A stretch of 64,000 bases of DNA, taken from Watersipora subatra (Eukaryota > Bryozoa > Gymnolaemata > Cheilostomatida > Watersiporidae). Positions within the stretch are counted from its first letter, which is position 1, and every line of letters begins with the position of its first letter. The notes under the pieces were generated by a model. The model saw only the letters and a list, made by a program, of their open reading frames with translations, did not search any database and was not told the DNA's origin. A program made the translations under genes and the position numbers. The DNA is taken from assembly GCF_963576615.1 (NCBI RefSeq), contig NC_088714.1:33512643-33576642 (forward strand), read 5' to 3'. This document shows positions 1 through 61,449 of the stretch, piece by piece.

Positions 1-2940
1 GTTATGCAAAGCATGTGTGACTTCTTTAGTGTAGCATGGATTGCAGACTTCAGAAACGATTTTTTTTCTTCATGTTTTTCATTTATCAAAACATTTTATG
101 ACTAGAAACTTTCTTTTCCTGTGTCCACGGTTCAACCGCCATGGTTATTGCTACTCTATGGCAACTTTTATTTAAGCATTAGGTCAATCTTTTAGACCAC
201 CCATGAGCAATATCTTCATGACAGAAATGACCTTTTAAATTGTATCAGAACAATAAGGTCAGCCCAATTTCTGTCATCTTTGTTGACATGTCGGTCCATG
301 GGTATATTTTTACTGAACTTTTAATTTTAAAGCATGAACTTTTTGTAGATCAACTTTGTGTCAAGGCCAGCAGCTGAAGGATGGATTTATCACCAAGTTG
401 CTATGAACCAGAATCTTTAGAACATTGTTAGTTAGGCAGTGAATGATTTGGGATGTGGGCATTGGCTTGCACCTAAATAAAAAAAATAATTCCTATGAGT
501 GTTTCCAAAGATGGAGTTGTCTCCACTAACTAATAGTGTTAATTTACCGCAGCTACTCGCGTTGCCTTTGAAGTGTCACTCTGTCAGTTTATCAAGCAAT
601 AGCGCCAAGTATCAACTAAAGCTCACATTCCCCAAGTATAAGCATATGGTGAGGTCGGTGACAATCTAATCTTGTTAATATAGTGATTTACAAAATACGG
701 TGTTCTCATACCAAAATTATATCTTTCAATAACCATACCCGCTCAGGCAAAATGTTACATTCAAATGATTTCTTTTTGAACACTTCAACGCTTATTTTAT
801 TCACTTGAGCAAGATCTTGAATTTTGAAAAAACTTCAGCTCTTGGAAACCTGGCTAGCACGCAGTAATCTGGCAGCAAACCTATAGTATTGTAGTCATGT
901 GTTGGTAGGCAGCAGACAGCATACCGAAAATGATGTAACCGCATAGTTATGTCAAAAAGTAGGCATCATAAGGCAGAATACGAGTAGAAAACCAGCTTCA
1001 ATGCTGTGTAATAAGCTAGCCAAAACAGTCCAATCAAACAGGCATCATTCTCTGACCTTTGGCCTTTGACAGTTCATAAGGAAACAACAGAGTGGCGGCT
1101 ACAGCAGAGGCGCCTACACATTCATCTGCTTACATGATTTTACTTCTAATTTCTGCTAAATAAACTTTTTAGATTACCATTTCAATAAAGCACACATTTA
1201 GCACCTCAATGAATCCTAACAAACTTTTTGATAGTCAAAAGGAAGACTTTGTGTTGATCATATCACTTCTACTAATATCATTGACTACCAAGTTTTCAAG
1301 ACGTGGTAGGTTGATCAGCAAGTTTGTTTCACTCGCAAGATGTAATCGGCCCAAAGCCTGCAAGTCAAGCGAGTTTTGACCCTCGCAAATTCTTACTGAA
1401 TGTTTCATGCTTGTGAAAGATGAAAACTGCGCCAATGAATGATGCAGAAGGAGATGCCAAACAAGCTATTTCATTTTAACATTTTCTACACTTTAGCCAG
1501 TCCTATTTTGAAAGTGTACTATTAAGCAAGACAGGAGTGCCGCTATGACCTCTGGCATAAAATTTCTTACTTTTTTTAACAAAGTGACTGCGTTAATCCG
1601 TACCATGCGAATGGTCGCAAGAAAACCCTTGTCACACGGTAACTCAACGTGCACACAACTCCTAATCCACATGATGAAAACATAGCTAGCAAAGCATCGG
1701 AGTTTCAGACCGAGGGTAAAAATATTTGTTTGATAGGCCCATACGTTCTTTTGTTCCTTTTAACATAACAATAAATTGAATGAATACTAATTCTAATAAC
1801 GATGTGCACTAAACTTCAACTGCTGACTAGCTAGGAATTCCAGATTGACAGCAGCGCAGTCATGTTGACGAAACAGACAGCAAGTTATACGGGTCAATAG
1901 CAAACAAACGTACTGACGGGTAATGATTGAGCTATCGATAACTTCCTAATTGCTATTATTCAATAAAACTTCCAGACTGAGCTAAAGAATATAAAGTACA
2001 TACGGCGAGTTAACTAGGTGTAGAGGCAATGTCGGTGATACGGTGTTACTGATTTCTATTATTCTATCAAACTAGATTCAATTAAAAATTTAGGAAGATA
2101 TCAAATTCTGACAATTCTTTATCAAATATTAATGAATGATGTTTTGTTAATATTCGTTGGCTAAAATATTTAATGTTGTATAGAAGAATACCAGAAAATA
2201 AATCTGGCGCCTAAAGAAATAACTTATATGCAAATTCATGTCTCTCGCGGCAATATGGGAGGTCAATTATCTTGAAATAGTTGTAGTGAGAGCTGGCAGT
2301 GATTCAACCAGTAGCAACTTTTGTTAATCTTTTACTCGCCAATAGGATTGGTGATTAGAACATTAATGCTACCGATGTAACGGATTCATTTTTAAATTTC
2401 ACTATAAACAAGTCAAACAGTACTTGGAGGCACTGATCACATGTTAACACCAGATAATGTGCTAAACACAACCGCTAAACACAACATATTTAGCTGCTGA
2501 CCAAATATTTTTATACATGTATATGGGATTCTTGAAGTCAGCGAATTGCGTCTGTACAATCGCTCGTGAAACCAGCCTACTGAGGTCAAATATTTGCACT
2601 GATCTGGGAACTTGACGCCTGACTTGAATCACATCAGATTCAAATGAACATAGCTTGCTTATATTTATGTCGATATATTCAATATTTTTTATATTTCATT
2701 TAAAGCTTAGCGGTAAGACTGACGATGCTTGAAATTTTTTTTATAAAATTTCGCTTCAATTCTAGGCGTTGTCTTCTCTCTTCACTCTGAAGTATTCAAA
2801 TTTTACATCATATGTTGACAAAAATGGTAGGCCTATGTTGGTGATACCATCAGCTGAGGTTTAACTGTTCATGAGCACTATGAATAGCGAATGGGCAGTA
2901 ATCGCGATAATGGGCCGATAGCAAAGTGTTAAAATTTTCT
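1..2940. other. Unassigned AT-rich stretch
   Basis: No gene, RNA or clear repeat recognised. The segment at about 200-365 has weak similarity to 14270-14410 (GAGCAATAT, CAATTTCT, ATATTTTTA, TTGTGTCA in the same order), perhaps an old repeat. Confidence 0.4.
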
Positions 2941-7760: not shown

Positions 7761-8231
7761 AAATGAACTTATACAAAAATTTAGTAGATTTTACCAGAAA
7801 GTATTGGTATTTTTTTATTAGTTGCGATTGTTTTTGGTTTGCGATGATCTGACTGCCGCGATGTTTTAAGATTAAAATCGACAAAACTTGACAGCAGTGA
7901 AACTCTCAGGAAAAAAATATGCGTCGAAGTGATATCACTAGTTTCGCGACTGCCAGTGTCTCGTGTTATCGATATCGATTATTGCATTCAAGTTGCAGCG
8001 TTATACCTCTCTATTTTGTTAGTCTCTTTTACCAAAGTGCAACTATAGATGTCATAACGACACTTTCGCTTGAACTTGAGAGTTTTAACCACGATAGTTT
8101 TATTGATTTTAATCTTGAAACATCCTGTCAGTCAGAACACCTCAAACATCAAAAAACAATCACTAATGATAGAAAAATTTTGATACTTTCTAATAAAACC
8201 AACTAAAATTTTGTGCAAGTTGATCTTTAAC
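7761..8231. mobile_element. Core MITE family, copy joined to the 58-bp satellite
   Basis: An imperfect palindrome with ends AATGAACTTATACAAAAATT and TTTTGTGCAAGTTGATCTTT. Inner blocks are TTAAAATCGACAAAACTTGA on the left and its diverged inverse on the right. Full relatives are at 11479-11944, 21168-21623 and 25966-26419. Its right terminal 20-odd bases recur in every unit of the following array. Confidence 0.72.
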
Positions 8232-9150
8232 AGTGGCAGATAACATTACGGATTGGGGTTTGAACATTTGGTGTAAGTTGATCTTTAACAGTGGCAGATA
8301 ACATTACGGATTGGGGTTTGAACATTTGGTGTAAGTTGATCTTTAACAGTGGCAGATAACATTACGGATTGGGGTTTGAACATTTGGTGTAAGTTGATCT
8401 TTAACAGTGGCAGATAACATTACGGATTGGGGTTTGAACATTTGGTGTAAGTTGATCTTTAACAGTGGCAGATAACATTACGGATTGGGGTTTGAAAATT
8501 TGGTGTAAGTTGATCTTTAACAGTGGCAAATAACATTACGGATTGGGGTTTGAACATTTGGTGCAAGTTGATCTTTAACAGTGGCAGATAACATTACGGA
8601 TTGGGGTTTGAACATTTGGTGTAAGTTGATCTTTAACAGTGGCAGATAACATTACGGATTGGGGTTTGAACATTTTGTGTAAGTTGATCTTTAACAGTGG
8701 CAAATAACATTACGGATTGGGGTTTGAACATTTGGTGTAAGTTGATCTTTAACAGTGGCAGATAACATTACGGATTGGGGTTTGAACATTTGGTGTAAGT
8801 TGATCTTTAACAGTGGCAGATAACATTACGGATTGGGGTTTGAACATTTGGTGTAAGTTGATCTTTAACAGTGGCAGATAACATTACGGATTGGGGTTTG
8901 AACATTTGGTGTAAGTTGATCTTTAACAGTGGCAGATAACATTACGGATTGGGGTTTGAAAATTTGGTGTAAGTTGATCTTTAACAGTGGCAAATAACAT
9001 TACGGATTGGGGTTTGAACATTTGGTGCAAGTTGATCTTTAACAGTGGCAGATAACATTACGGATTGGGGTTTGAACATTTTGTGTAAGTTGATCTTTAA
9101 CAGTGGCAAATAACATTACGGATTGGGGTTTGAACATTTGGTGTAAGTTC
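8207..9150. repeat. 58-bp tandem repeat, about 16 copies
   Basis: The unit runs from GTAAGTTGATCTTTAACAGT through GGCAGATAACATTACGGATT to GGGGTTTGAACATTTGGT. Copies are nearly identical. Variant units (GAAAATTTGG, GGCAAATAAC, GTGCAAG) recur 464 bp apart (8 units), so a block of units has itself been duplicated. The first 20-odd bases equal the end of the neighbouring MITE. No coding content. Confidence 0.95.
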
Positions 9151-37004: not shown

Positions 37005-37802
37005 TAGATATTAAATTGTAATGGAAATGAAGAATGCTTTTTGCCCAGTCTAAAGATCCATTGTGGTAAACAAGCTACAAGAAGCAGCTGACCTTGAAAC
37101 CTGTGTACGCCACGGTCTTTATAGTGTGTCTCTTCAAGCGCGCTACGCATGGATTCACTGTTTTCTGTGCATCTGATTCTTTTTCTGTGCATCTTCGATA
37201 CACTTAGAGTCTGCTCATAAAGACGGAATGAAGGTAAAATAAGAGGCTTTATGAAACTCTGAAAGTAGCTCAATCTTGTAATGAATTCTGAGGTGTTCTA
37301 AAGCATCCTAAGGTGTCTAATACGTGCGAAATATTTTACCCTTCCTTTTATACGAATCAATTTTCATGTCCAAAATATAAATGATGCTGGTGGTAGCCAG
37401 AAGATCGTATGAACTTCACTCGTGATAGTTCCTATGAGTCCTTGTGAACATGTTCATTGTGTTTCTCACTTAAGTATCACAGATAGTTTGAGTGCTTGTC
37501 CATTAGTTTGGGTGATAAGCGGACGTTATTACATATAAGATTTAATAAAAAGCTAGACAAGACAATAATCTACAGTTTGTCAATGCACACTATCTCACCA
37601 GAGTATGAATGTTGGAATTGCTTTCCCTTGGAATGGTAACAATAACTACCATCATATGTAGCGAGTATTGCCCGTGTTAGTGTTCACGTGTCTACGGGGA
37701 ATGAGCCTATTTAGGGCAGTAGATTTGTTTAAAGTATTTATGGCTTTTTTTTCTACCAAGTGAACTCGCCAATACTAGTTTTTGCTAAACATGGAGTATA
37801 TT

Positions 37803-39629
37803 CAATCCTTCACAACACGCAACATCAACACAATACGTATTTATAATGCATACTCCATACATTTTCAATCCTTCACAACACCCAACATCAACACAATACG
37901 TATTTATAATGCATACTCCATACATTTTCAATCCTTCACAAGACCCAACATCAACACAATACGTATTTATAATGCATACTCCATACATTTTCAATCCTTC
38001 ACAACACGCAACATCAACACAATACGTATTTATAATGCATACTCCATACATTTTCAATCCTTCACAACACGCAACATCAACACAATACGTATTTATAATG
38101 CATACTCCATACATTTTCAATCCTTCACAAGACCCAACATCAACACAATACGTATTTATAATGCATACTCCATACATTTTCAATCCTTCACAACACGCAA
38201 CATCAACACAATACGTATTTATAATGCATACTCCATACATTTTCAATCCTTCACAACACCCAACATCAACACAATACGTATTTATAATGCATACTCCATA
38301 CATTTTCAATCCTTCACAAGACCCAACATCAACACAATACGTATTTATAATGCATACTTCATACATTTTCAATCCTTCACAAGACCCAACATCAACACAA
38401 TACGTATTTATATTGCATACTCCATACATTTTCAATCCTTCACAACACCCAACATCAACACAATACGTATTTATAATGCATACTCCATACATTTTCAATC
38501 CTTCACAACACCCAACATCAACACAATACGTATTTATAATGCATACTCCATACATTTTCAATCCTTCACAAGACCCAACATCAACACAATACGTATTTAT
38601 AATGCATACTCCATACATTTTCAATCCTTCACAACACGCAACATCAACACAATACGTATTTATAATGCATACTCCATACATTTTCAATCCTTCACAACAC
38701 CCAACATCAACACAATACGTATTTATAATGCATACTCCATACATTTTCAATCCTTCACAACACGCAACATCAACACAATACGTATTTATAATGCATACTC
38801 CATACATTTTCAATCCTTCACAACACCCAACATCAACACAATACGTATTTATAATGCATACTCCATACATTTTCAATCCTTCACAACACCCAACATCAAC
38901 ACAATACGTATTTATAATGCATACTCCATACATTTTCAATCCTTCACAAGACCCAACATCAACACAATACGTATTTATAATGCATACTTCATACATTTTC
39001 AATCCTTCACAAGACCCAACATCAACACAATACGTATTTATATTGCATACTCCATACATTTTCAATCCTTCACAACACCCAACATCAACACAATACGTAT
39101 TTATAATGCATACTCCATACATTTTCAATCCTTCACAACACCCAACATCAACACAATACGTATTTATAATGCATACTCCATACATTTTCAATCCTTCACA
39201 AGACCCAACATCAACACAATACGTATTTATAATGCATACTCCATACATTTTCAATCCTTCACAACACGCAACATCAACACAATACGTATTTATAATGCAT
39301 ACTCCATACATTTTCAATCCTTCACAACACCCAACATCAACACAATACGTATTTATAATGCATACTCCATACATTTTCAATCCTTCACAACACGCAACAT
39401 CAACACAATACGTATTTATAATGCATACTCCATACATTTTCAATCCTTCACAACACCCAACATCAACACAATACGTATTTATAATGCATACTCCATACAT
39501 TTTCAATCCTTCACAACACGCAACATCAACACAATACGTATTTATAATGCATACTCCATACATTTTCAATCCTTCACAACACCCAACATCAACACAATAC
39601 GTATTTATAATGCATACTCTATACATTTT
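37803..39629. repeat. 63-bp tandem repeat, 29 copies
   Basis: The unit runs CAATCCTTCACAACACCCAA, CATCAACACAATACGTATTT, ATAATGCATACTCCATACAT, TTT. Three main variants occur (ACACGCAAC, ACACCCAAC, AGACCCAAC). Units 8-17 and 18-27 carry the same variant order, including a rare pair with ACTTCATAC and TATATTGCAT exactly 630 bp apart. Because 63 is a multiple of three and the unit lacks stops in some frames, ORFs of 610-655 codons arise on both strands. They have no start context, domain or codon bias and are not genes. Confidence 0.97.
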
Positions 39630-41334: not shown

Positions 41335-41421
41335 ATGGGCAACTCTAACACTGTGAGGAAGCATGTTGACATGGCAGCAAAAACAGGAGCTTGTCAATTG
41401 ACCAAACTAGGCTTAGAGGAG
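41335..41421 (+). CDS. LRRC57: LRRC57 coding exon 1
   Basis: Encodes residues 1-29, MGNSNTVRKHVDMAAKTG through LGLEE, and ends in phase 0 at GAG|GTAGGT. Gly2 with Asn3, Ser4 and Thr6 suits N-myristoyltransferase. The upstream tract ctctccccttttcaag ends one base before the ATG, so this exon may begin at 41334 as an internal exon carrying one base of 5' UTR. Confidence 0.92.
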
Positions 41422-44400
41422 GTAGGTCTTCTCTGAAGGTAGTTATAGCTTGTTAGGGCTACCCAGTCGGATTCTTAACATGAAGTGCTCTGTTGGATTT
41501 ATAATTGCACAGGTCTCCAATCATCACATTTTCAAAGGATCTTGCCATTACATACCGTTGCTAAATCAATTTATCTAAGTTATACTAATATAAGTCTTTC
41601 TATAATATACTTAGGATAAAGACTGTTTTTGCAAGCCACCTTTATGGCAGACATTGTGACTATAAAAAAATTTATAAAAACACATTTTTAAAAATCTGTT
41701 CTAGTGGATTAATCAGTTTCCTTAAAAATCATTATAGTCAGTTTCCTTGAAAATATAAAGTTTTTTACCTTATTCATTTTAAAGTTTTCGAATGCTTTAA
41801 ACTAATAGTGGTTATGTTCAATGCAATATTTGTAAGCTTGAGTTATTTCTAATCTATTGACAACCATATATGTCATCTATAATACTGGACAACAAGATAT
41901 TTATATATGAACATTAGCACATGTTTGTTTGGTATGATTGGTGTTGCCATGAATTTTATAAGTCATTTTGATAACATAATTTTGTATGACTAAAGGTCAA
42001 TAATAAATTCCAAGTCGTGCCACTACAGCTGACCCTCTACTTGACTAACTGCAGCCTTCATGTTTAAAATTAGTTTAATTTTGTTTTGTGTTTTATTAAC
42101 CCATTTAATCATCACAAAAATAGCAGATGGAAAATCTGCAATTTTTAACGACACTAAGTATATGACAGCCCATATTTTCAATTGTTGCTTTATTCTCGTG
42201 TGTCAACTATCATATAATCAGCATTTAAAATGTGTAATGGTCAGCATTTCAACTTGCTATCACACAGCGGCAGATCGAAAGAGGCAAATCTATGATCAGT
42301 TTTGGCGAATACAGTTGTTAAATTTCGGTGTCACACCTCCTTTAATGACGCGTAACACAAATCCTTTTAGCACCTCATAACACATCTCTATAGTTTAAAA
42401 TAGACATCATTAAACCGTATTTTGGCTAATGGTGCTTAATGACAAAAAATGATGTTGAGGTCGTAGAAACAACTTCGATTAGTCGACAGTATCATGGTTA
42501 AAGTTAGACTTATGAAGAATTGTTAAGGAATGACTGGAAGGCAAAAGTCGATGGTACAAATCGGCCGTTGGTTGGTTAGAACGCAAGTTATCAATAACCA
42601 GTAGAGCCCATCACGGAAGAAGAACACAAAGTTCCATAACCATGTTCTCTGAACTTTGTGTTCTTTTTCTTGGATGCACTAGCCTGTCTTCAAGCCAAAC
42701 AGTGGTATATATACAGGCTAGCGATGCACAGGTTGTTGCGGTCGATTCATCAATTTACAACAAAACTCCACTCAGCAACTACTCGTTTCAGCTTGGCCTA
42801 GTGGCAAATGAAGACGATGGGCTATTCTAGATAGATCATGGTTATTTATGGTTTTTCCAAACAAGTACATACAAAATGGGAATGAAAAAGAATAAGGCGG
42901 GTTTTTGCAAGACTTCTGATGGGAACTAGCTTTTACCCAACTAAAATGACACCGAATAAGTCCGTCAGTGAACGGCATACATAAACTACTTGCAAATTGT
43001 TGCTGTTTTCATCTAAGAGTTATAAAAGTTACAGATATAGGTTATCTCTATCAGCCTTGACACACTTCTCTATAGTTGGTGTGCTACTCACCTTCCTTAA
43101 CCCTTTGGCTGGGTTAAAGCCCCGCAAAAACACCCGAAAGTCGTGTAATTTATTTTTGAAAATTCAATAAAATCGATATTTTATGAACATGCATAGCTCA
43201 AACTGAAATGTATTTCTATGAACAAAATCTTTTGTACACAAACGTTCATTTACATATCTACTACTACAAAAAAACTACAACTGTTCCTGCATGAAATGCT
43301 TGGAAGCATTCTTTTCGGTAGAGTTCAACGCTATAACGTAGCCGTGCGAGCTATCGTAACGATCGTTTTTCTCTGTATATTCCAAGTGTATTAAAAGTCC
43401 AAAAAGTTTACATCACTTTTATCATCTGAATTATTTTTATTCTGATCAGACAAATGATCACTAATGATCGCAGGATCAAATAAATTTTTATTTTACCGCT
43501 TTGAACGTCGAGGCGATGTTGACTGGTTTTTCCAACTTTTATTCTTTTCCAAGGAGGTGCGACTTCTTTAGCTTTTAGCACAAAGCAACACTTCTCAGAT
43601 AATCGTTTCATATGGTAATTCATCGACTAATATCTTGTTGATGATATTTAAAACTTACTAGTGTTCATATCCTTTGTTTAAAGTTACTAGGCGACAGCTT
43701 TATAAACGTCTACCGAAAATGACATAAATGTCGTTTCCCCACGCAACCGATAAACGACATTTTTGTCGTTTCCTTAGCCAAAGGGTTAAGTAACTGTGTA
43801 CCCTACTAACCCTTGTGACTGTACTACCCTGTGAGTTCTGTGAAGTGAATAGTTCTAATGTTTCCAGGTACCACCAGAGCTCAGCTCTATTGCAGCAAAT
43901 CTTCGCACTCTAGATCTCTCAGAGAATAGAATTGGAAGACTGCCAGCCACTATTTCTCAGTTTGGCTTGCTCAAATCGCTTCAGCTCAGTTTCAACAGCT
44001 TGAGTACGTATGACAGTATTCTTTCTTGCTATTTATCCTTGAGTACGTATGACAGTATTCTTTCTTGCTATTTATCCTTGAGTACGTATGACAGTATTCT
44101 TTCTTGCTATTTATCCTTGAGTACGTATGACAGTATTCTTTCTTGCTATTTATCCTTGAGTACGTATGACAGTATTCTTTCTTGCTATTTATCCTTGAAG
44201 CTAAGACTAAATATAATTTCACACACTTGCTGAAGGTTGTTTGTTGATAGATTTAGGGCTCCTGTGGTCAAGGCTTAATCAATTTTGTCCTTCTGGCTAC
44301 TTGCTAAAAACTCGGGCGCACATATATGAAATCAAACATAGCAACACTGTTTAAAATTTTGTGAATCCTTTACATTTTTTGTGATTTAAAACTGTTTGCT

Positions 44401-47400
44401 TTTGTTTACTTAGAAACAAAAACACTCAAAAGCATGCCTGAAATGTATTATTTATTATACACTAATAAAAATTGTTGGTTATGTTATTAGTATTTTATAT
44501 GGGGTAAAAAAGTATTGCGTAGTAACAACCTATTGACGAAAACTAACAATTTTCACTTATTTTGATACCAAGAAGGTCAGTCATATGGTAGACTGAGTAT
44601 TTACGTATAGGTCATGTGCCAGACAAGAAAGGGCTTTGGTTAAAACTATTCTTTTATTTATGATACTATTTGTAACCAGTTGACTAAAATGTGTCAACTG
44701 GTTGCTTTGTGATTAAACATTGTTGGTATTTGCAGTGCAGTTATAAATTTGTTCCTTCAAGCATTGTGATACCATGATTTAAAAGGGGATCAATGTCTGC
44801 TTTGAGTTAAGCTGCAAAAATACTCATTTTAGCAAAGATTTGCTAGTTTAAAAAATGTTTTATGTAAACGGTTTGTGTAGCATATGAAATTTCACATAGC
44901 GTCCTACATTTTAGTTGGTTCACCGATGTTAGATATTTTGTGAGGTCCTTAAAGGTGGCTGTGTAGTAATCGAACTGCTCTGGTCATGGTCAGTTTGTCC
45001 TGGCGCAACCAAAGCTCTTAATTGGCTGCACAGCTTATTATTCCCTCTATGTTTACAAACAGTTAATTCAATCGCGATTTAGAAAAATTACATCGTTCAA
45101 CAATAGGACAGAAATTAGCTGGAACGATGTTAATTTTCTTAGCTCGTTTTGAACTCATCGCCAACATTGGTTGAAATATGCAGTCGTCAAAATGTGTAGG
45201 TGCTTTGTTACCACATGTGTCGAGTTTCTGCTTTGTAAGTGCTACTGTTACTAGTATTGTACGTCTGTCAGTCCTGTGCACTGTGAGAGATGGATATGAG
45301 TGATCAGTATAGGGTGAATTATCCAATGAAATGGTAAGGTGGCCAAGTGGTGTAGTGCTAGTGCGCTTGCCTTTGCATGAGATGCCCCGGGTTTTATTCC
45401 CGTGCAAGGGAATCTTTGTCCCCACGCCAATGATTTTGAATGTACAGACATACAGACAGACACCGCTCGTATTATAGTAAAGATTACTAATACTTGGACC
45501 CTTTAGCTGACTATTTGAAAAAAGATCGTTTCTTTTATGAATGAATGTTTTTGTATTTAGCGACAAACTAGGTTCAAGGTTTTAAAATGGCGGTTCCTGA
45601 ACAGATAGATGAGTTGCCGCGGTAGCTGTTATAGGCATTTCACTTCTGTTCTTTCCTACCTCTTTTTCATGCACTTCAATGAAGTTTACTCAGGATTTTT
45701 TTATGTCCCAATTGTAAAAAAACTATAATGCTTAGCTATAAGAAAGCATGATTTATTTTGTCCTCACTTGACTGCTGCCTTGTTTACAAGACAGCGGAGT
45801 CAAAGAGTCTTGTACAACTCTACTATGGAAGAGGTGTAGTTATGATGAAATACAAATCTAACCTCAATTTTAAAATGGTCTTCTAAGGCTGGTTTACACT
45901 ATATCGCTGTATCTCAGTGTTGCTGCTACAATACTGAGATACTGATGATACTGAGATTTCGGCGTTGATGCCACAATACTTCGGTGATCGTCGATGATAA
46001 CAATGTTCAGACTATCACAAACCCATCCCGTTTTCATCAGCAAATACTCCGTGGGGTAGTGTTCTCATCTCCTTATTAATTTTTTCTCAAAGAAACCCCT
46101 TTGTTTTCGCGTGCTTTAATCCAATACTAGTCCCGCAGCAACTATAATAAACAGAAATGAATAAATCACGCTATTCGCAACCTCTAATTACTATCGCCGA
46201 AATGGTTCACATCGTATAGGCAGTTGTTGATGCACGGCGAAATATCGAGAAAGTTTGCATCTGTCAAACTTTCCCAACGTGTCCGCGTTGCTTCGTCGAT
46301 GCCATCGGTTTACCGTTCGCATAGTTGATGATTAACACCGAAAGAAAAACACGGAAATACGACGATATAGTGTGAAGCAGCCTTTAGTTTGTGATGTCCT
46401 CCATTGGTTTGTGTACAGTGATACTGGAGTCTAATTAGCCCACCTCAGTATCAGCTGACGAGTTACAATAGTTTTGAAGGGATGTTCATCCATTATCTGA
46501 CTATGGTTGACTTGCAACAAAATTCACATTACAGCTATTTCGCATCAAAAGATTCACCATGTCTTACTCTGTTGTGTTGTAGGTGCCAAATATGTGGAAA
46601 TGTGATTACAAGCTCTTAAAAGCTCAAAAACGAAAAACCGCCGTAGATTGGAATCTCTTTATTTCTCTGACGTATTCATTACAGTTTGGTTATCGTCTTG
46701 TCACGTGATGTTCTCACGTGAATTGAAAGGCCAATAAAAAGCTCAATATAAAAATTCTCGTAGCACTAGTTTATGACAAACACTTCGGGTTTTACCGAAG
46801 ACCCCGTATCAAATATAGATGTTCGCTACTTTACAATTTTGTTTCGGCATTATCTAATTGTCAAGTCGTAATCTGATCATGTGACCCAATACTTCGCAAA
46901 TAATTTCTGCAGCACTTTTCAGTTATCACAGGTGACCAACAGGCTCGTCATGATTATCAGACAATGATATGTACTCCTTCGAGCTAAGGCTAAAAAGTTT
47001 ATTAAGTTTTTACGGTAAGTTATAAGATATCAGTGCTAAAAGTGACAGCATTACAATGACGATAAAACAGATGCGTAAGAACAGTAGACATAGTTTTATT
47101 GAATGCGTGAAGTATATTTGTAAAAAATATTTCGACGAATGAGGTTGCATGAAAGTGTAAACAGAAACCATCCTGTAACAACTACGTCCCATTTGAGCCG
47201 TTTGGGAAAGCGAATCCAAACTATGACGGTCTCGTGTGGCTGCTATTAAATGTTTGTTTTTTTGCTTTTTAGAGCTTGTAATCACATTCCCATATATTTT
47301 GCATCTACAACACAACAGAGTAAGACATGGTGAATCTTATGATACCAAATAACTGTAATGTGAATTTTGTTGCAAGTCAACCTTTAAGAGCTTATAAAGG

Positions 47401-50400
47401 CATCTATCCTTATCAGCTCTGCCAGGCTGTCAGCCTTATAAAAAGTTAGGCAGCTTTTGTAATAGGTGATTTCTTATTGTAATTGATTAAACAGCATCTT
47501 TGATAGAGGTGCTCCTTTTCTGTAGCAGATTATGCAGTTTTTATAACATGATGCTGCTGATTTGGTAGGCAGATTCATGTTTCTATAGCAGGTTATGTAG
47601 CCCCTATCAATCTTTGTGGCGGGTGTTCATTTTATGTAGTCAGGGAATAATCTGTATGGTAATTGTTGTAGTTTTCTTTTTAGATGTAGCAGGAAAACAC
47701 ACATTCATCACTATTTTTGTAGTCATGTAGTCAAAATTGTGCGTAAACTATGCCCAGAATATTTGTATTTATCCTTCCACACTTCCTTGACAAACATTAT
47801 TTGCTTTTCCACCAACATTTTTTTTCTTTATGACACCAACATACTACATCCACCATCATATGTTTCAGTTTATGAACTTCCTGTTACTACAACCTACAAT
47901 TCGCTATTCCGACTCCTTCGCAGTGCTATTAGATTATCAACTTTTAAAACACTTGAATTAATTCAACTCACTCAATAGTTCCTGAATTCTACCTTATCAT
48001 TTTGGTTTTGACATATAATGAAAAATACATTTTGTTGATTATCACTAATGTATACCTATACAGACATGTTTGTGCATTATATTGTTTTGGAGTTTTGTAT
48101 ACATAGTTGAGGAGGAAAGACAACTTTAGCCATTTGTTGCATCAGTCGCCAAAATTGCGAACGTGACACTTTGCACAAAGAAGTTGTTTCTTATCAATTT
48201 TAACGATTGTGAAAAATTTGGAGTCGAAAATAAGTTACTCGAATTCATGAAGCTCCAATAATCTGACCTCTGACCTGGTAACTTCCTCATTTTAATAAAT
48301 TCAAGGTTTTTGCTAGTAATCTTGCCAATTTGGTCTAACACAATTGATTCTTGTTACTTACATGTGCATTGAATAAAATGAGTCATTACCTTTTTCATAC
48401 GCTGTACATTTTCCATGACATATATATTGTACAGTTTGTATACACTAGCGATGTGTTGCAAAGCAGCGCTTTTCTGTGTTTATGCAAACGATATCTGATC
48501 CACATTTGCCTCTCGGCGTTGAACGTTTCACATGTTATTGAGGCTTTACTTACGTAAATGTACAGAACACCTTTATTAAAGGTAGTGCCAATTAGTTCCC
48601 TGCTCATTCATAAATATTTCCTCATCAATCTTCTATGTTCTGTTTGTATAGGAAATTTGCCTGATGAGATTGGAGATCTTGCAAGGCTGGAGACGCTCGT
48701 TTTGACAGGAAACCAGCTCTCAGGCTTGCCAGAAACTTTGGCCAAGATAAAAACGTTGACGACTCTAACGGCTTCGCGTAACCAGTTTGTGGTGTTTCCG
48801 ACAGTTGTATATTCATTACGTAGGCTTGATGTCCTTGACCTTTCTGCCAACAAGATAACTTCAATTCCGGATGGTATTAACCAGATTCAGGCAATCGAGA
48901 TGAACCTCAATCAGAACCAGGTCTGGTCAGGGCGGTTATTGCTAATTATAAGCTGGAATTCCTTCTCCAATAGTTTCTTCTTAATAAATGAAATAATCAC
49001 AAGTTTTTAAAAATTTCTTTTCAAAGCTAATAGGAAACTGACACCTACAGTGATACTGATTTTAAAAAAAGTTTTAATTTGTTTAAAACTTTAAAAAACT
49101 TTAAAACCAGCAGAAAGTAATATTGTTATATTTGCCAAGCAATTAAATCATCTACTGGTAGTCTTCAAGATTAAACTTGTTTATTTATCATTCCATAGCC
49201 ATAAAGTTATCAGCCATAAAGTTATCAGCCATAAAGTTATCTTATAAAATTGCAGCTGTTATCATTGGTACAGCAAAACTTATATCTAGGTAGTTGGGTA
49301 GGTTGCTTCAGTGAATATAGCAGTAAAATCCTTTTTTCACAAAATGCGGTGAGCTGCAACCTTCACCACTTTAACCAAACACCTACCCAAAAACTATTTC
49401 CTCCTAAATATTATCATCCTAACCAGTTATGATCGATTACCTTTCGAAAAAAATCTAGTTCTCAGCCTACATGTTATTTCACAATATTGGAGTTGCTCTT
49501 TCAGGTTTGGCTGTGCAATCAGGTAGAGCAGCAAAGTATCTAACTGGAGTTCCATGTATGCTTTTTGATTCCAACCAAAACATATTTACAGATGATTGTC
49601 GTTAAACCAGTTTAAACCAGTTCAAACCAGTGTAAACCATTTCAACTAGGTGACAGTTCTAAATTAGAGCATTTTCGTGCATAAAAATATAACAAGTGCA
49701 ACCAGCTGCTAGATTTTTTATCTAGTAATTTTATGATAGAGCGTTCTACTTCATTTTCATTCAAATTATACAGTAAAAGAAATACTTCTCTTTTAAAAAT
49801 TCAAAATTATAAAGAAGTATAGCTTTAAAGGCGCCAAATTGATCTGCAGCCAAGGGAATTCTAGTGGCCCATTTTTCTGATGCAACCTTTTCAGAAATTT
49901 TCCTTAGTTTCAACATATCTAATTATGTTTTGTTTTTGGTGCTATCTTCATAGGTAAGGTCGGCAGCAGGGGCTATAGACGGATGCAGCAGCTGACTACA
50001 CTACTTAGTTGTTACTTTGTACTTCTGTTAATTTCAGCACATACCAGTTTGCTGGCATTTGAATATCTTATTTAGCTGCATCTCATCAAACCTTTTATCA
50101 TAATTACAAGTTTTGCTTGCTCACTACTGCTAGCTAATTGTCAGGTCAGGGTCATAGTTCATCGCAACAACAGCGTGTTAATGTAATGAGCTTTGTAAGC
50201 TTTTGTGAAACAATCATTTCGAGTGTTATTAAAGTGACCTACATAACTAGGTCAAGTTAATAACACTTACAATGAAACTATCATTTCGAGTGTTATTAAA
50301 GTGACCTACATAACTAGGTCAAGTTAATAACACTTACAATGAAACAATCATTTTAAGTGTTATTAAAGTGACCTACATAACTAGGTCAAGTTAATAACAC

Positions 50401-53400
50401 TCACAATGAAACAATCATTTCGAGTGTTATTAAAGTGACCTACATAACTAGGTCAAATTAATAACATTTATAATGAAACAATCATTTTAAGTGTTATTAA
50501 AGTGACCTACATAAATGGGTCAAGTTACCGTACTTTTCGGACTATTAGCCGCTACTTTTTTTCTGACGATTTGAGCCATACGGCTTATATAAGGGTGCGG
50601 CTATTCTGTGGCTCTTTCTTTCACCGCTAGGGCGCATTAACCAGAATCTCCAGTTAGTACGCCTCTAGCGGTGAAAGAAAATCTGAAACAATGCCTAACG
50701 GTACTGTTTCGTTAGACACTAGGTTAAACAGCGTCGGTTAATACGAAACAGTGTCGTTAGGCACTGTTTCGTTTTAAACAGCAAAGTTACTGCCGCCTTA
50801 AAAAGTACCGACCTGAGTTCTGCGGCCTACGTATTGTTTTATTATTGTTTTTTGGAAAATAAAGCAGATGCAGCTTATATAGGGGTGCGGTTTATAGTCC
50901 GAAAAATGCGGTAATATAACACTTACAATGAAATAATCATTGTAAGTGTTATTAAATTGGCCCACTTAACCAGGTTCAAGGTTTCAAAATGGCAACTCCT
51001 GAACAGAGAGATGAGTTGCCACTATGGCTGTCATATGTGTTTCATATGCATTTCATATGCTGTTATATGCGTTTCATATGCTGTTATATGCGTTTCATAT
51101 GCTGTTATATGCGTTTCATATGCTGTTATATGCGTTTCATATGCTGTTATATGCGTTTCATATGCTGTTATGTGCGTTTCATATGCTGTTATATGCGTTT
51201 CATATGCTGTTATATGCGTTTCAGATGCTGTTATATGCGTTAGGGCAACTTAGCCGGTAATTTGCTCTGAAATGGATGTTGGTAAATCATGGAGTTTATA
51301 GATTAACGTCTTCACTCGTTTCCATAGTTATTATTTGATATGTAGTTTTTTTCAGTTGTATGTATTATCAGCAAAAATCTGAAGAATAGCAAATTTTAGT
51401 ATAACAACCAATAAAACTTAGAAAAAATTGCACTTTTAAGAATAAAGCATTTTCAAATTCATAAAAGATATGATTGTCATTGCTATTTACTTTCTGCGCT
51501 TCAAAGAGCTTTCTTGAGATCTTTGCACAAGTTAGCTTTTTCGTATCTATGATGGTTATTATCATTTATAATCCAAAGTAAACAGCTTGCTCTGTTGCGA
51601 CGCCAGTGCTTGTTATGTTAGCTAAAAGATTTTACCAATTTTAAAATTATAATTCTCAAAGTCAGTTGAAAATAATTTGTCTCCAGTTTAATTGCGCGTA
51701 GTTTCTTTCTCATGATTTAAAATGTTGTGATTACCATTTATGACTTGATTTTTATTCGAGTCCCTCGCACACTTCTCACTGCTCCTGTTCATCTCATTCA
51801 CGTAATTGTGTGGGCCTCACACGTCAGCATATTCATGTGCTCATTTGCATATGGCTTCACCTATGGGCACGCGAAGGTAGAAGTCCTGTATTACGTGTGA
51901 TGTCTCGGCAGCATTCTAAACTTTGACTTGTCCCGAGGTGACTACGCTTAGTCCAACCCCCACAATGACATATGGCGACTGTCACGTCATAACCTTTTAC
52001 CAAAGGAACGAGGCGACAGTGGCCCCTTAGATGCTGCCGACGTGAAATGCCTCTAGAGGCAGCGCTCCCACGCAGCCAATCTTCCGCTTATGTCTGTCTG
52101 CTAGAGTTGACATTTACACTTATGCAAGGGCTTCCTTTACGCCCTACTCGCGTAATGCCAAGGCTTGCAAGGCGTTTTTACCTACCCCAGACACGTCTTA
52201 ACTGTAAACTGACATTTGTTGAAATATTATATATTTTATACACTCACTCCGCTAGCGCCAGCATGACATGGAATGTTTCTTCGCGCATTTTTCAAATATT
52301 TTAATAATGTTTAATTTTGTAAGCAACAAAATTGTCTCTATGCTGTCCTGTTTGCAGTACTAATAGCTCCTTAGAGTCATAACCTATTTTTAAATTCGGC
52401 TGACGAATAGCATTCTAGCGGGTCAAAAGGTTATCAAGGATCTCGGATGCTGCCAGGGGCTAGCAGTGACCTCTTGACTTGTGTCTCTGTTATGCTTTCA
52501 TCGGATCAACATAGCTTTTAAAATCTAATAGCAACATGATATACATTTCCTTGCCCTTATAGGAATATTGCTTAGATGTCTGGTCTGAGTCAATAATAGC
52601 GAGTGTTGACAGTGATGTCATTAGCTATTGCCATGGTGGCAAAACAGCCATGCCTCAATTGTAAAAGTGTTCATAGACCACAAAATTGAACTCTAATAGA
52701 ACAAACCAATCAATGACCATACAGGGGGTCCTCGACTTACGACATTGATTCGTTCTCAAGATGCGGGATAACTCGAATTTCTCTGTAAGTCAAAACTTCC
52801 TGAATAAATTACTCCACACTCTTATTAGTATCTAGTTTCACCTTCATGGTGATGGCCCTTCTTATGTAACCATTATGTAGAGCAAAAATTTAATAAAGAA
52901 TTAAACGGGTGACAGAGCGAGAACTAGCGCCGGCGCAGCCGAAATTGTGTCACACTAAAACTGAGTGATGCACTGATGCTATCTTCCTCCCTATAAGCAC
53001 AACAGAGCGTATTCATCCTCTCCATGCTGAATAATAGTTTACAATTGTTAGCATTGCTTACATCGTAAATATCATTTTATATATTTTCAAGGGGTCAGTT
53101 CATAACCTTGAAACAACATAACTCGTTGTAGCCCGACGACTCCCTGTATTCATGTACAAATTGCTCGTGCTTCTACCAGTCTTATTATGCTTAGTTCATC
53201 CATAGAAACCAGTTTGTTTTTTTAATGTGCAACCACTCGAGTGTTTATGTAGCCCTGCAGTCAGTTGTATGTATGTGCGGCAGATAGCGGTGCTGTCAGA
53301 AGACATCTCCAACTGCCCTAGGCTGAAAGTGCTCAGGCTAGAGGAGAATTGCCTTGAGAAAAAGATGATTAGCCCGAGGCTCCTTATGGAGTCCCAGATA

Positions 53401-53872
53401 GCTTTGCTCACGATTGATGGGAACCTGTTCCCAGCCAAAGACTTTCCACACTTTGATGGATATGATGAGGTGAGACGAATCTGCAGGCCGCTCGAGCGAT
53501 TTATATACATTTGCTCATCTATAGTTGGAAATAGCTGTTTGATTTGTTCTTCCTGTTATGCATCTTCGTTTCTGCTAATTGCTGATATTATTTATAGTGT
53601 TAATTGCGTGGTTATATCTGGATCCCTTTAGGCAAAACATGTGTTAAAGTTGCACAAACATTTATTCTTTGTAAGTGTCAAGTTTAACACAAAATTAGGG
53701 CCCTTTATGAGCGAAGAGTTTGTTTTCTGTCTATATTTACACCTATGGAAGTTCATAGAATCGCTCTAGGGATCTAATACTCATGGTTAGATCTATGTAT
53801 GTTCATAACATTGTTCTATGAATTTTTTAGTATCAAGAGAGGTACACCGCTACGAAGAAAAAGATGGGATGA
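41335..53872 (+). CDS. LRRC57: LRRC57 orthologue, five coding exons (join 41335-41421, 43868-44003, 48652-48920, 53284-53469, 53831-53872)
   Basis: The joined exons encode 239 residues, the length I recall for vertebrate LRRC57. The N-terminus MGNSNTVRKHV has Gly2 and Thr6, fitting N-myristoylation, so membrane attachment is likely; the family's molecular role is poorly known. From about residue 40 to 200 there are successive leucine-rich repeats of the LxxLxLxxNxLxxLP type, for example NLRTLDLSENRIGRLP, RLETLVLTGNQLSGLP and RLDVLDLSANKITSIP. These are followed by the family-specific EMNLNQNQ, CPRLKVLRLEENCLE and GYDE-YQERYTATKKKMG tail. Intron phases are 0, 1, 0, 0; introns are about 2.4, 4.6, 4.4 and 0.36 kb, all GT-AG. 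The start has a good context (A at -3, G at +4). A pyrimidine-rich stretch ending in AG lies just before the ATG, so the 5' UTR may itself be spliced. I could not identify a promoter. The reading is intact, with no stop or frameshift, so the gene is probably functional. Identity is very likely; exact splice sites are inferred from family alignment and phase. Confidence 0.95.
43101..43785. mobile_element. piggyBac-like MITE in LRRC57 intron 1
   Basis: TTAA lies at both ends (43097-43100 and 43786-43789), next to CCCTTTGGCT and, on the reverse strand, CCCTTTGGCTAAGG. TTAA targets with CCC ends are the piggyBac signature. The inner ends hold the palindromic motif ACGACATTTTTGTCGT. A minus-strand stretch rich in Asp and Ser near 43400-43450 may be a relic of the acidic transposase N-terminus; that is weak. 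The element ends about 80 bases before exon 2. Confidence 0.82.
43868..44003 (+). CDS. LRRC57: LRRC57 coding exon 2
   Basis: Follows the acceptor tgtttccag and encodes residues 30-74 plus the first base of codon 75. It carries the first LRRs (NLRTLDLSENRIGRLP and LLKSLQLSFNSL). The natural donor is TTGA|GTACGT. The last four exonic bases are the start of a 39-bp tandem repeat that runs into the intron, so the donor exists in five identical copies. Confidence 0.92.
44000..44198 (+). repeat. 39-bp tandem repeat copying the LRRC57 exon 2 donor
   Basis: Five identical units starting TTGAGTACGTATGACAGTAT run from the last four bases of exon 2 into intron 2. Each unit recreates TTGA|GTACGT, so donors lie after 44003, 44042, 44081, 44120 and 44159. 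A sixth partial TTGA is followed by AGCT and has no GT. The 39-base period is 13 codons with no stop, so every donor keeps the same phase. Confidence 0.95.
45336..45420 (+). mobile_element. tRNA-derived SINE head in LRRC57 intron 2
   Basis: A box A-like TGGCCAAGTGG (45340-45350) and a box B-like GGTTTTATTCC (45390-45400) are spaced as in a tRNA gene. Box B has two changes from GGTTCGATTCC. The arms CCCCGGG and CCCGTGC do not pair as a clean tRNA, so this is a SINE head or tRNA pseudogene. The body may extend to about 45640. Confidence 0.65.
45570..45645 (+). repeat. Short dispersed repeat, possibly the SINE 3' part
   Basis: The stretch GGTTCAAGGTTTTAAAATGG through CAGATAGATGAGTTGCC recurs at 50973-51020 with few changes. 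It ends GCTGTTATAGGCATTTCA, a single copy of what becomes the 21-bp array in intron 3. Confidence 0.65.
45895..46384. mobile_element. MITE with AAGGCTGGTTTACACTATAT ends, LRRC57 intron 2
   Basis: The left end AAGGCTGGTTTACACTATAT is matched inverted at the right by AAGGCTGCTTCACACTATAT. The inner arms hold repeated GAGATACTGAT-like motifs. I could not settle the target duplication or superfamily. Confidence 0.72.
46505..47387. mobile_element. Long-TIR MITE (GGTTGACTTGCAAC family), copy 3, in LRRC57 intron 2
   Basis: The same inverted arms as the copies at 2.9 and 10.3 kb, including GTCTTACTCTGTTGTGTTG on the left and its complement on the right. The leftmost TTAAA is lost or replaced by CTAT. 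Confidence 0.83.
48652..48920 (+). CDS. LRRC57: LRRC57 coding exon 3
   Basis: Follows the acceptor ctgtttgtatag and completes codon 75 as Arg. It encodes residues 75-164 with LRRs reading NLPDEIGDLARLETLVL, GNQLSGLP, LTASRNQFVVFP and LDLSANKITSIP, and ends with EMNLNQNQ before GTCTGG. The donor is weaker than consensus, but the phase and the family alignment support it. Confidence 0.93.
50208..50527. repeat. 67-bp palindromic tandem repeat, five units, LRRC57 intron 3
   Basis: Each unit is AATGAAACAATCATTTCGAG followed by a palindrome: GTGTTATTAAAGTGACCTA on the left and TAGGTCAAGTTAATAACAC on the right, around CATAAC. Units start exactly 67 bp apart. The fifth is cut by the MITE at 50528, and more sequence of this type follows at 50914-50955. 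Confidence 0.9.
50528..50911. mobile_element. TA-target MITE inserted in the palindromic array
   Basis: TA lies on both sides. The ends are CCGTACTTTTCGGACTATTA and, on the reverse strand, CCGCATTTTTCGGACTATAA. Inner repeats include GCTTATATAAGGGTGCGG near the left and GCTTATATAGGGGTGCGG at the right. It splits the last array unit, which dates it after the array. Confidence 0.78.
51027..51242. repeat. 21-bp tandem repeat, about 10 copies, LRRC57 intron 3
   Basis: The unit is GCTGTTATATGCGTTTCATA plus T. It begins where the dispersed repeat shared with 45570-45645 ends. Open frames through it are a by-product of the 21-base period. Confidence 0.93.
52722..53146. mobile_element. Tigger/pogo-like element, LRRC57 intron 3
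   Basis: Flanked by TA on both sides. The left end CAGGGGGTCCTCGACTTACG is matched inverted at the right by CAGGGAGTCGTCGGGCTACA. It ends about 137 bases before exon 4. Similar ends occur at 13426-14220. Confidence 0.75.
53284..53469 (+). CDS. LRRC57: LRRC57 coding exon 4
   Basis: Encodes residues 165-226, from IAVLSEDISNCPRLK through NLFPAKDFPHFDGYDE, and ends at GAG|GTGAGA in phase 0. An upstream AG at 53259-53260 (ccctgcag) has the better pyrimidine context, but it would bring an immediate in-frame stop. The acceptor gcggcag is therefore chosen from reading frame and family alignment. Confidence 0.9.
53831..53872 (+). CDS. LRRC57: LRRC57 coding exon 5 (terminal)
   Basis: Short last exon after the acceptor gaattttttag, encoding YQERYTATKKKMG and a TGA stop. 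It matches the basic family tail (ERFTATKKK-type), which makes this very small exon credible. A possible AATAAA lies 17 bases after the stop. Confidence 0.9.
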   Translation, partial: YQERYTATKKKMG

Positions 53873-60043: not shown

Positions 60044-60463
60044 CAGATAAGGGTACAGTCAGTGTACAGTAGTTGTAGAAAGGGGTTAAGATAAGGGTAC
60101 AGTCAGTGTACAGTAGTTGTAGAAAGGGGTTAAGATAAGGGTACAGTCAGTGTACAGTAGTTGTAGAAAGGGGTTAAGATAAGGGTACAGTCTGTGTACA
60201 GTAGTTGTAGAGACGGGTTAGGATAAGGGTACAGTCTGTGTACAGTAGTTGTAGAAAGGGGTTAGGATAAGGGTACAGTCAGTGTACAGTAGTTGTAGAA
60301 AGGGGTTAAGATAAGGGTACAGTCAGTGTACAGTAGTTGTAGAAAGGGGTTAAGATAAGGGTACAGTCAGTGTACAGTAGTTGTAGAAAGGGGTTAAGAT
60401 AAGGGTACAGTCTGTGTACAGTAGTTGTAGAGACGGGTTAGGATAAGGGTACAGTCAGTGTAC
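60044..60463. repeat. 44-bp tandem repeat, about 9.5 copies
   Basis: The unit runs AGATAAGGGTACAGTCAGTG, TACAGTAGTTGTAGAAAGGG, GTTA. A variant with AGACGGGTTAGG recurs 220 bp apart (five units), showing a block duplication. Confidence 0.94.
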
Positions 60464-61449
60464 AATGAGGGTAAAATAAAATAACTAAAAATATATAACT
60501 TTAGAGCTGGAATAAATATAAACCAACAAAAGTGTAATAGCTTGACAAAGCTAAGACAAGGCAGACAAAGAAAGGACCACTGAGGTAGGAGGACTGCAAG
60601 TGAACCAAAAGCTTTCAATTTCAGAAACTTCTGTCTGAAGATGCCAGTAGGAAAACACTTGCTATAGAACAGCTTTGAACTCGCTAAAGTTGGTTCATTA
60701 GACACAACTAGAGCTCAAATTTGATTGGTCAGTTAAATGCTAGCGAACGCATTCGTGACATTTTCAATATTGCTTTATTCACATTGTTTATTCCTAAAAT
60801 GAAATTACCTAAAAATAAAACATGAAAGTTGAGCTCAGTACCATTTGTTTAAGCTAGTAATTTTTATACAAAATATTATTGTCTGATTTATTGTTGTCAA
60901 CGGAATACGCCTTCAAACTCAAAAATATGTAGGACACTCATTACAAACACCGATTAGTTTGGTTGAGTTACGTTCATTCTAGGAACTTCCCGTTTGCCAA
61001 TTTTTTATAGTGAGCTTTGGAATAAATCTAAGTCAACACTAAACTTGAGTAATCATAGTTTAAAAACAGAGTAAAGGTAGGGTAAAATTAGAGAAGGAAG
61101 GTGGCATGGGTAAATTGAACCTAGCATGACAAACAGTCAAGGATATAGTGAACATATAATAGAAATATAAATATGAACATATAATAAGTAGATGTTGGAA
61201 ATAGTTCTGTAACAGGGGTACCAAAGGATACAAAAAGGTTATGGAAGCGCTGTCACCAAGGATTACTTAAAGTTGAATATTATCATGGTAAGAACTTGGT
61301 CCAAGGTGGGTACAGAAAATGCAGCTGTATGAGACAGTCAATTTATGAGTAAGGTGTAAGTTTAGTAAAGGTCGGGGAGAATAAGTCTAAAGTGAGTGAA
61401 GCACTAGGGGAAGGCTACTTTAAGGTCGGAGTAGGGTAGTCAAGATTAT

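Follow-up and report, generated by a model that had tools for sequence, protein, structure and literature searches.

The splice donor of exon 2 in an LRRC57-like gene is repeated five times, in frame, by a 39-bp minisatellite, and this ladder of donors is most likely a by-product rather than a designed switch, since elsewhere in the genome similar arrays lie over a few per cent of sampled exon ends. The account that we favour, and consider probable, is that a minisatellite born by slippage copied the donor, that donor 1 is mostly used, and that copies 2 to 5 are used less, as a common and unselected by-product. The LRRC57 array is one member of a class rather than something peculiar to a single gene, because arrays were found over 8 of 147 exon edges, some of them frame-shifting or stop-bearing. 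The in-frame ladder needs no selection. What is new here is this context, namely arrays lying over exon edges elsewhere in the same genome.

The window (the whole stretch of 64,000 nucleotides that was analysed) belongs to an assembly of 784 Mb in 239 contigs. A tblastn search with an approximate human LRRC57 query gave matches in all five exons of a gene on the + strand. Joining these exons through donor 1 predicts an LRRC57-like protein of 239 residues (Table 1), in which the Pfam models LRR_8, LRR_14, LRR_4 and LRR_1 scored over their cut-offs. Exon 2 has a phase-1 end, and the codon AGA that follows Leu74, which is Arg75, is completed by exon 3. With donor 1 joined, the LRR register is ungapped relative to SHOC-2 over the exon 2/3 junction, which means that the donor at 44003 gives the family register. 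The initial annotation had identified the gene as LRRC57 and had attributed the family-length protein to the first donor; the tblastn matches, the splice-joined product and the SHOC-2 alignment agree with an LRRC57-like identity and with the family length. Homology is also compatible with a lineage-specific insert, which may be the normal form of the LRRC57-like protein. No second LRRC57 copy or haplotig was found, the junction DNA matching the assembly once. Among the 150 of 261 candidates that were scored, LRRC57 matches above 90% identity lay only at this locus, and the rest were at 48% or below.

Table 1. Positions of the features discussed. Numbering is that of the window, except for the last four rows, which are numbered on the gene strand of each locus.
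Feature	Position	Strand	Details
LRRC57-like exon 1	41335..41421	+	Start codon; donor GAG|GTAGGT; tblastn and splice join
Exon 2	43868..44003	+	Phase-1 end at donor 1, TTGA|GTACGT; SHOC-2 LRR alignment gap-free over the junction
Exon 3	48652..48920	+	Acceptor TGTATAG|GAAATT; splice join
Exon 4	53284..53469	+	Splice join
Exon 5	53831..53872	+	Coding end; TGA stop at 53870-53872
Minisatellite, 39 bp x 5 + CTTGA	43999..44198	+	TRF; unit-by-unit comparison
Donor 1, GTACGT	44004..44009	+	Predicted protein of 239 residues
Donor copy 2, GTACGT	44043..44048	+	Would add 13 residues, giving 252
Donor copy 3, GTACGT	44082..44087	+	Would add 26 residues, giving 265
Donor copy 4, GTACGT	44121..44126	+	Would add 39 residues, giving 278
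Donor copy 5, GTACGT	44160..44165	+	Would add 52 residues, giving 291
Terminal CTTGA (microhomology)	44194..44198	+	Followed by AGC
L048 array	428-725	- strand of locus	
L052 array	449-734	- strand of locus	
L078 array	152-276	- strand of locus	
L086 arrays	1-262 (acceptor) and 424-677 (donor)	- strand of locus	

The array takes in the final 5 bases of exon 2 and runs on into intron 2. TRF scored it at a period of 39 bp, 5.1 copies and 100%, a head-to-tail arrangement within the range of about 10-100 bp that defines a minisatellite, and all five units are without any difference between them. The junction TTGA|GTACGT and the five identical units had been described in the initial annotation, and both stood. 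As for the extent given there, 43990-44198, the end was right and the start was moved to 43999 by TRF. The word CTTGA is present at each end of the array, which is the expected trace of slippage between short direct repeats, a probable origin for the array; the terminal one is not a donor, since AGC, not GT, comes after it. Within the window, the + strand has five occurrences of TTGAGTACGT and the - strand has none. Perfect identity had been read as suggesting a recent expansion. This reading fits, but homogenisation fits too, and of the 42 TRF rows that reached 4.5 copies or more, a second one (L013) was also at 100%; the identity of the units fits an array that is either recent or homogenised. 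Other large minisatellites of the window are located at 37801-39629 (63 bp x 29), 8208-9149 (58 bp x 16.2) and 60045-60464 (44 bp x 9.5), with 96-97% matches.

The exon-side ends of TTGA|GTACGT fall at 44003, 44042, 44081, 44120 and 44159, one per 39 bases, and every unit holds both the exon end and the donor GT (CTTGA|GTACGT), as in a donor VNTR of the CBS type. Each unit corresponds to 13 codons with no stop in the exon 2 frame, as proposed initially. The splice joins also returned the anticipated inserts between Leu74 and Arg75, in sequence and in their four lengths (Table 1), each 39-base step inserting STYDSILSCYLSL in the predicted protein. A stop is met when the exon 2 frame is read on beyond the array. 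Two further GTs are present per unit, at 44007+39k (out of frame) and at 44015+39k (in frame, ACA|GTATTC); the pairing of those at 44007 and 44015 with U1 is -2.1 and -2.3 kcal/mol, compared to -3.9 kcal/mol for donor 1. They were rejected as exon 2 donors, the former giving a frameshift and the latter 4 added residues. Recursive (zero-exon) splicing within the array was rejected as well: it calls for a juxtaposed polypyrimidine-AG|GT, and the site reads TTGAGTACGT, in which a single G serves both the AG and the GT.

Donor 1 is weak. Its U1 duplex, at -3.9 kcal/mol, compares with -10.4, -6.9 and -9.7 kcal/mol for the other donors of the gene, and 57 of the 322 GTs in 43868-48600 pair better with U1. 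The repeated donor also scored under every one of the 61 donors called in the survey described below, with a matrix built from them, a rank which is biased low because this set was filtered at -4 kcal/mol. Given this weak U1 pairing, dominance of donor 1 is not assured.

Arrays of period 10-100 were found to cover about 9.2% (9.25%) of 200 kb of sampled genome (20 arbitrary stretches of 10 kb), and 10.4% of the window. With a coverage of about 9%, an array over a donor is not a rare accident in this genome. Exon edges were surveyed in 80 other exons of protein kinases and myosins found by profile match (60 of 142 kinase matches and 20 of 75 myosin matches). These exons were selected from the match tables, before sequence inspection, as having no stops and a profile end within the domain. 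Their edges were taken as the ends of the profile match, and a donor was called in 61 of the 80. Thirteen starts were dropped because a match beginning at profile position 1-4 marks the start of the domain and not an exon edge, which left 67 usable.

Arrays lay over the donor side at 5 of 80 exon ends (exact 95% range 2.1-14.0%) and over the acceptor side at 3 of 67 usable exon starts (0.9-12.5%). Combined, this is 5.4% of the 147 edges (2.4-10.4%), which is not significantly low compared to genome coverage (p = 0.12; p = 0.07 for 8/160). Under a strict rule of +-20 nt, the donor-side overlaps were L035, L048, L051, L052 and L086. L035, whose likely donor (by eye) is about 40 nt before its array, was swapped for L034, where the array starts at a donor 31 nt beyond the match end, and the donor-side total stays at 5. 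L069, with a 10-bp x 2.2 repeat by the donor at a laxer TRF score of 30, was left uncounted. The first 40 exons, with 4 ends and no start overlapped, hinted that arrays might favour donors, but this did not hold at 80 exons (Fisher p = 0.73). In two zones upstream of the exons, arrays made up 8.1% and 8.0% of the sequence. The share was 3.5% at exon starts (4.2% when only the 67 usable ones are counted), 0.6% in exon interiors and 5.0% at exon ends, and it reached 10.3% and 13.5% in two downstream zones. Exon bodies are thus strongly depleted of arrays, with the edges intermediate.

The arrays at these edges differ widely. In the OSR1-like L034, a 45-bp array begins at TTG|GTGAGT; the remaining four copies have GTGAGT or GTGAGA, copy 2 being shifted by one base, and a TGA is in frame at the start of unit 2. 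The 111-bp unit of the MAP3K2-like L048 consists of an exon piece and the donor, in 2.7 copies that are in frame and open (copy 3 has HRG instead of HRD). L051 has AAG|GTACTT six times at irregular spacing, the donor being set by eye. In L052, nearest to MAP kinases and CDK2, the donor array is 32 bp x 9; CAG|GTTGGT is found in copy 1 only, and the matching extra donors are dead, since copies 2-9 read CAG|ATTGGT, with A at +1. A single exon of the MELK-like L086 has arrays at both sides, with seven copies of the acceptor ACAG|G about 38 bp apart and, at the donor, nine positions spaced by 28 bp, of which 8 are GT. On the acceptor side, the GSK3 exon L078 has a 48-bp repeat of 2.6 copies that takes in its acceptor together with the first bases of the coding part, giving three TTGTTGCAG acceptors 48 bp apart, in frame and open, of which the outer ones could add 16 or 32 residues, and in the STK11-like L074 a 58-bp array spans the approximate exon start. 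Where homology can tell, the predicted family-length exon ends at the copy adjoining the exon body.

Among the eight arrays of the survey, L048 and L078 are open and in frame, which becomes 3 of 9 once LRRC57 is added. By chance, this was the case for 57 of 252 combinations of unit, strand and phase (42 array rows, which take in overlapping rows and the LRRC57 array), and the 3 of 9 did not differ significantly from it (p = 0.33). As open in-frame arrays do not exceed the chance expectation, the in-frame period is no evidence of selection.

We propose that the minisatellite probably arose through slippage between two copies of CTTGA, one of them being the end of exon 2, and that its growth would have copied the intron 2 donor fivefold. 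The exon-side donor 1 would serve most transcripts and yield the 239-residue protein, while the four downstream donors would leak at some lower, unselected rate and lengthen the protein by 13 residues at a time, in frame. No part of the LRRC57 array would be adapted for isoform production. For arrays in general, the simplest account would be an outward growth from the exon, in which the inner site is kept and the outer copies are tolerated. We suggest more tentatively, as a possibility on which we would not rely, that several per cent of the splice sites, spread across thousands of genes, lie under minisatellites, that the resulting standing pool of isoforms differing by length steps is altered at each slippage event, and that the spliceosome of this lineage would have to select among many adjacent identical sites, picking the exon-side copy.

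Leakage may not occur at all. Donor 1 alone would then be used, with copies 2-5 being plain intron without effect on the protein. The restoration of the family length by donor 1 would agree with this, and so would the donor-like extra copies seen in other conserved kinases (L034, L051, L086): some outer copies sit at a frame-shifting spacing or with an in-frame stop, which suggests that they are often ignored. We nevertheless consider complete silence unlikely. The five donor sites are identical, donors 1-4 being also followed by all the same unit bases, and in C. elegans a donor doublet that was duplicated by engineering is used (see below).

The opposite reading, in which the copies of a weak donor jointly raise U1 capture, or the STYDSILSCYLSL steps are useful, and copy number is selected, seems improbable. 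It could draw on the low score of the repeated donor (under 61 of 61 called donors, in a set filtered at -4 kcal/mol) and on five identical copies open in frame, but it has to face the absence of enrichment in in-frame open arrays even with LRRC57 included, and sister arrays whose period shifts the frame or whose extra donors are dead, as in L052. An error of copy number in the assembly, which the perfect identity of the units could suggest, is very improbable, as contigs are long (66.3 Mb for C7, 79.4 Mb for C1) and the other exon-edge arrays show varied divergence between units. We retain slippage, with a predominant donor 1 and a lesser use of the extra donors, as the preferred explanation.

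If this is true, one genome contains many natural experiments in splice-site choice: donors or acceptors that are identical, or nearly so, are set in competition at a fixed spacing, and this in conserved genes (GSK3-, STK11-, MELK- and LRRC57-like). RNA from one individual would reveal which copy is picked by the spliceosome, and how the preference falls off with distance. Caution is also called for with gene predictors, which may pick the wrong copy of a splice site in such genomes.

No survey of a genome with several per cent of its splice sites in minisatellites was found in a search of mainly open-access literature, nor did passages on the repeats of earthworm metallothionein and of a prawn lectin describe an array over a splice site. 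Splice signals are also copied when tandem genomic duplication gives rise to an intron (PMC4974935, PMC3443670), but the LRRC57 array copies the donor of an existing intron and makes no new one. In human segmental duplications, exons and introns are altered by variable minisatellites (mean 30 bp x 4) at exon-intron boundaries, for some of which alternative transcripts have support (PMC2812944); those 80 modifications came from a comparison of recent primate paralogues, whereas single-copy conserved genes are concerned here.

An array of the same kind is the human CBS VNTR, whose 31-bp unit, named c.1444_1467+7(16_21) (PMC2630376), can be read from this name as 24 bases of the exon followed by the first 7 of the intron, which means that it too repeats a splice donor. 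The CBS unit is not a multiple of 3, and it is polymorphic with 16-21 copies (PMC2630376), whereas the LRRC57 array has five copies of 39 bp, in frame, in one assembly. Longer CBS alleles have been linked to lower enzyme activity (review, PMC5188458).

Three cases bear on our expectation that donor 1 dominates with some leakage. Two favour it. In C. elegans unc-73(az100), which like the LRRC57 array has identical donors a short distance apart, the duplicate 18 nt downstream is used and the upstream one is used more, although there the site is engineered and consists of two /G/UU doublets (PMC8865678). With the 68-bp duplication of the intron 7/exon 8 junction of human CBS, splicing strongly favours the copy that omits the added exon piece (PMC2630376). 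The third opposes it: of two donors in human DOK7, the intron-proximal one is favoured by SRSF1 (PMC5585400), a rule which, applied to LRRC57, would favour donor 5.
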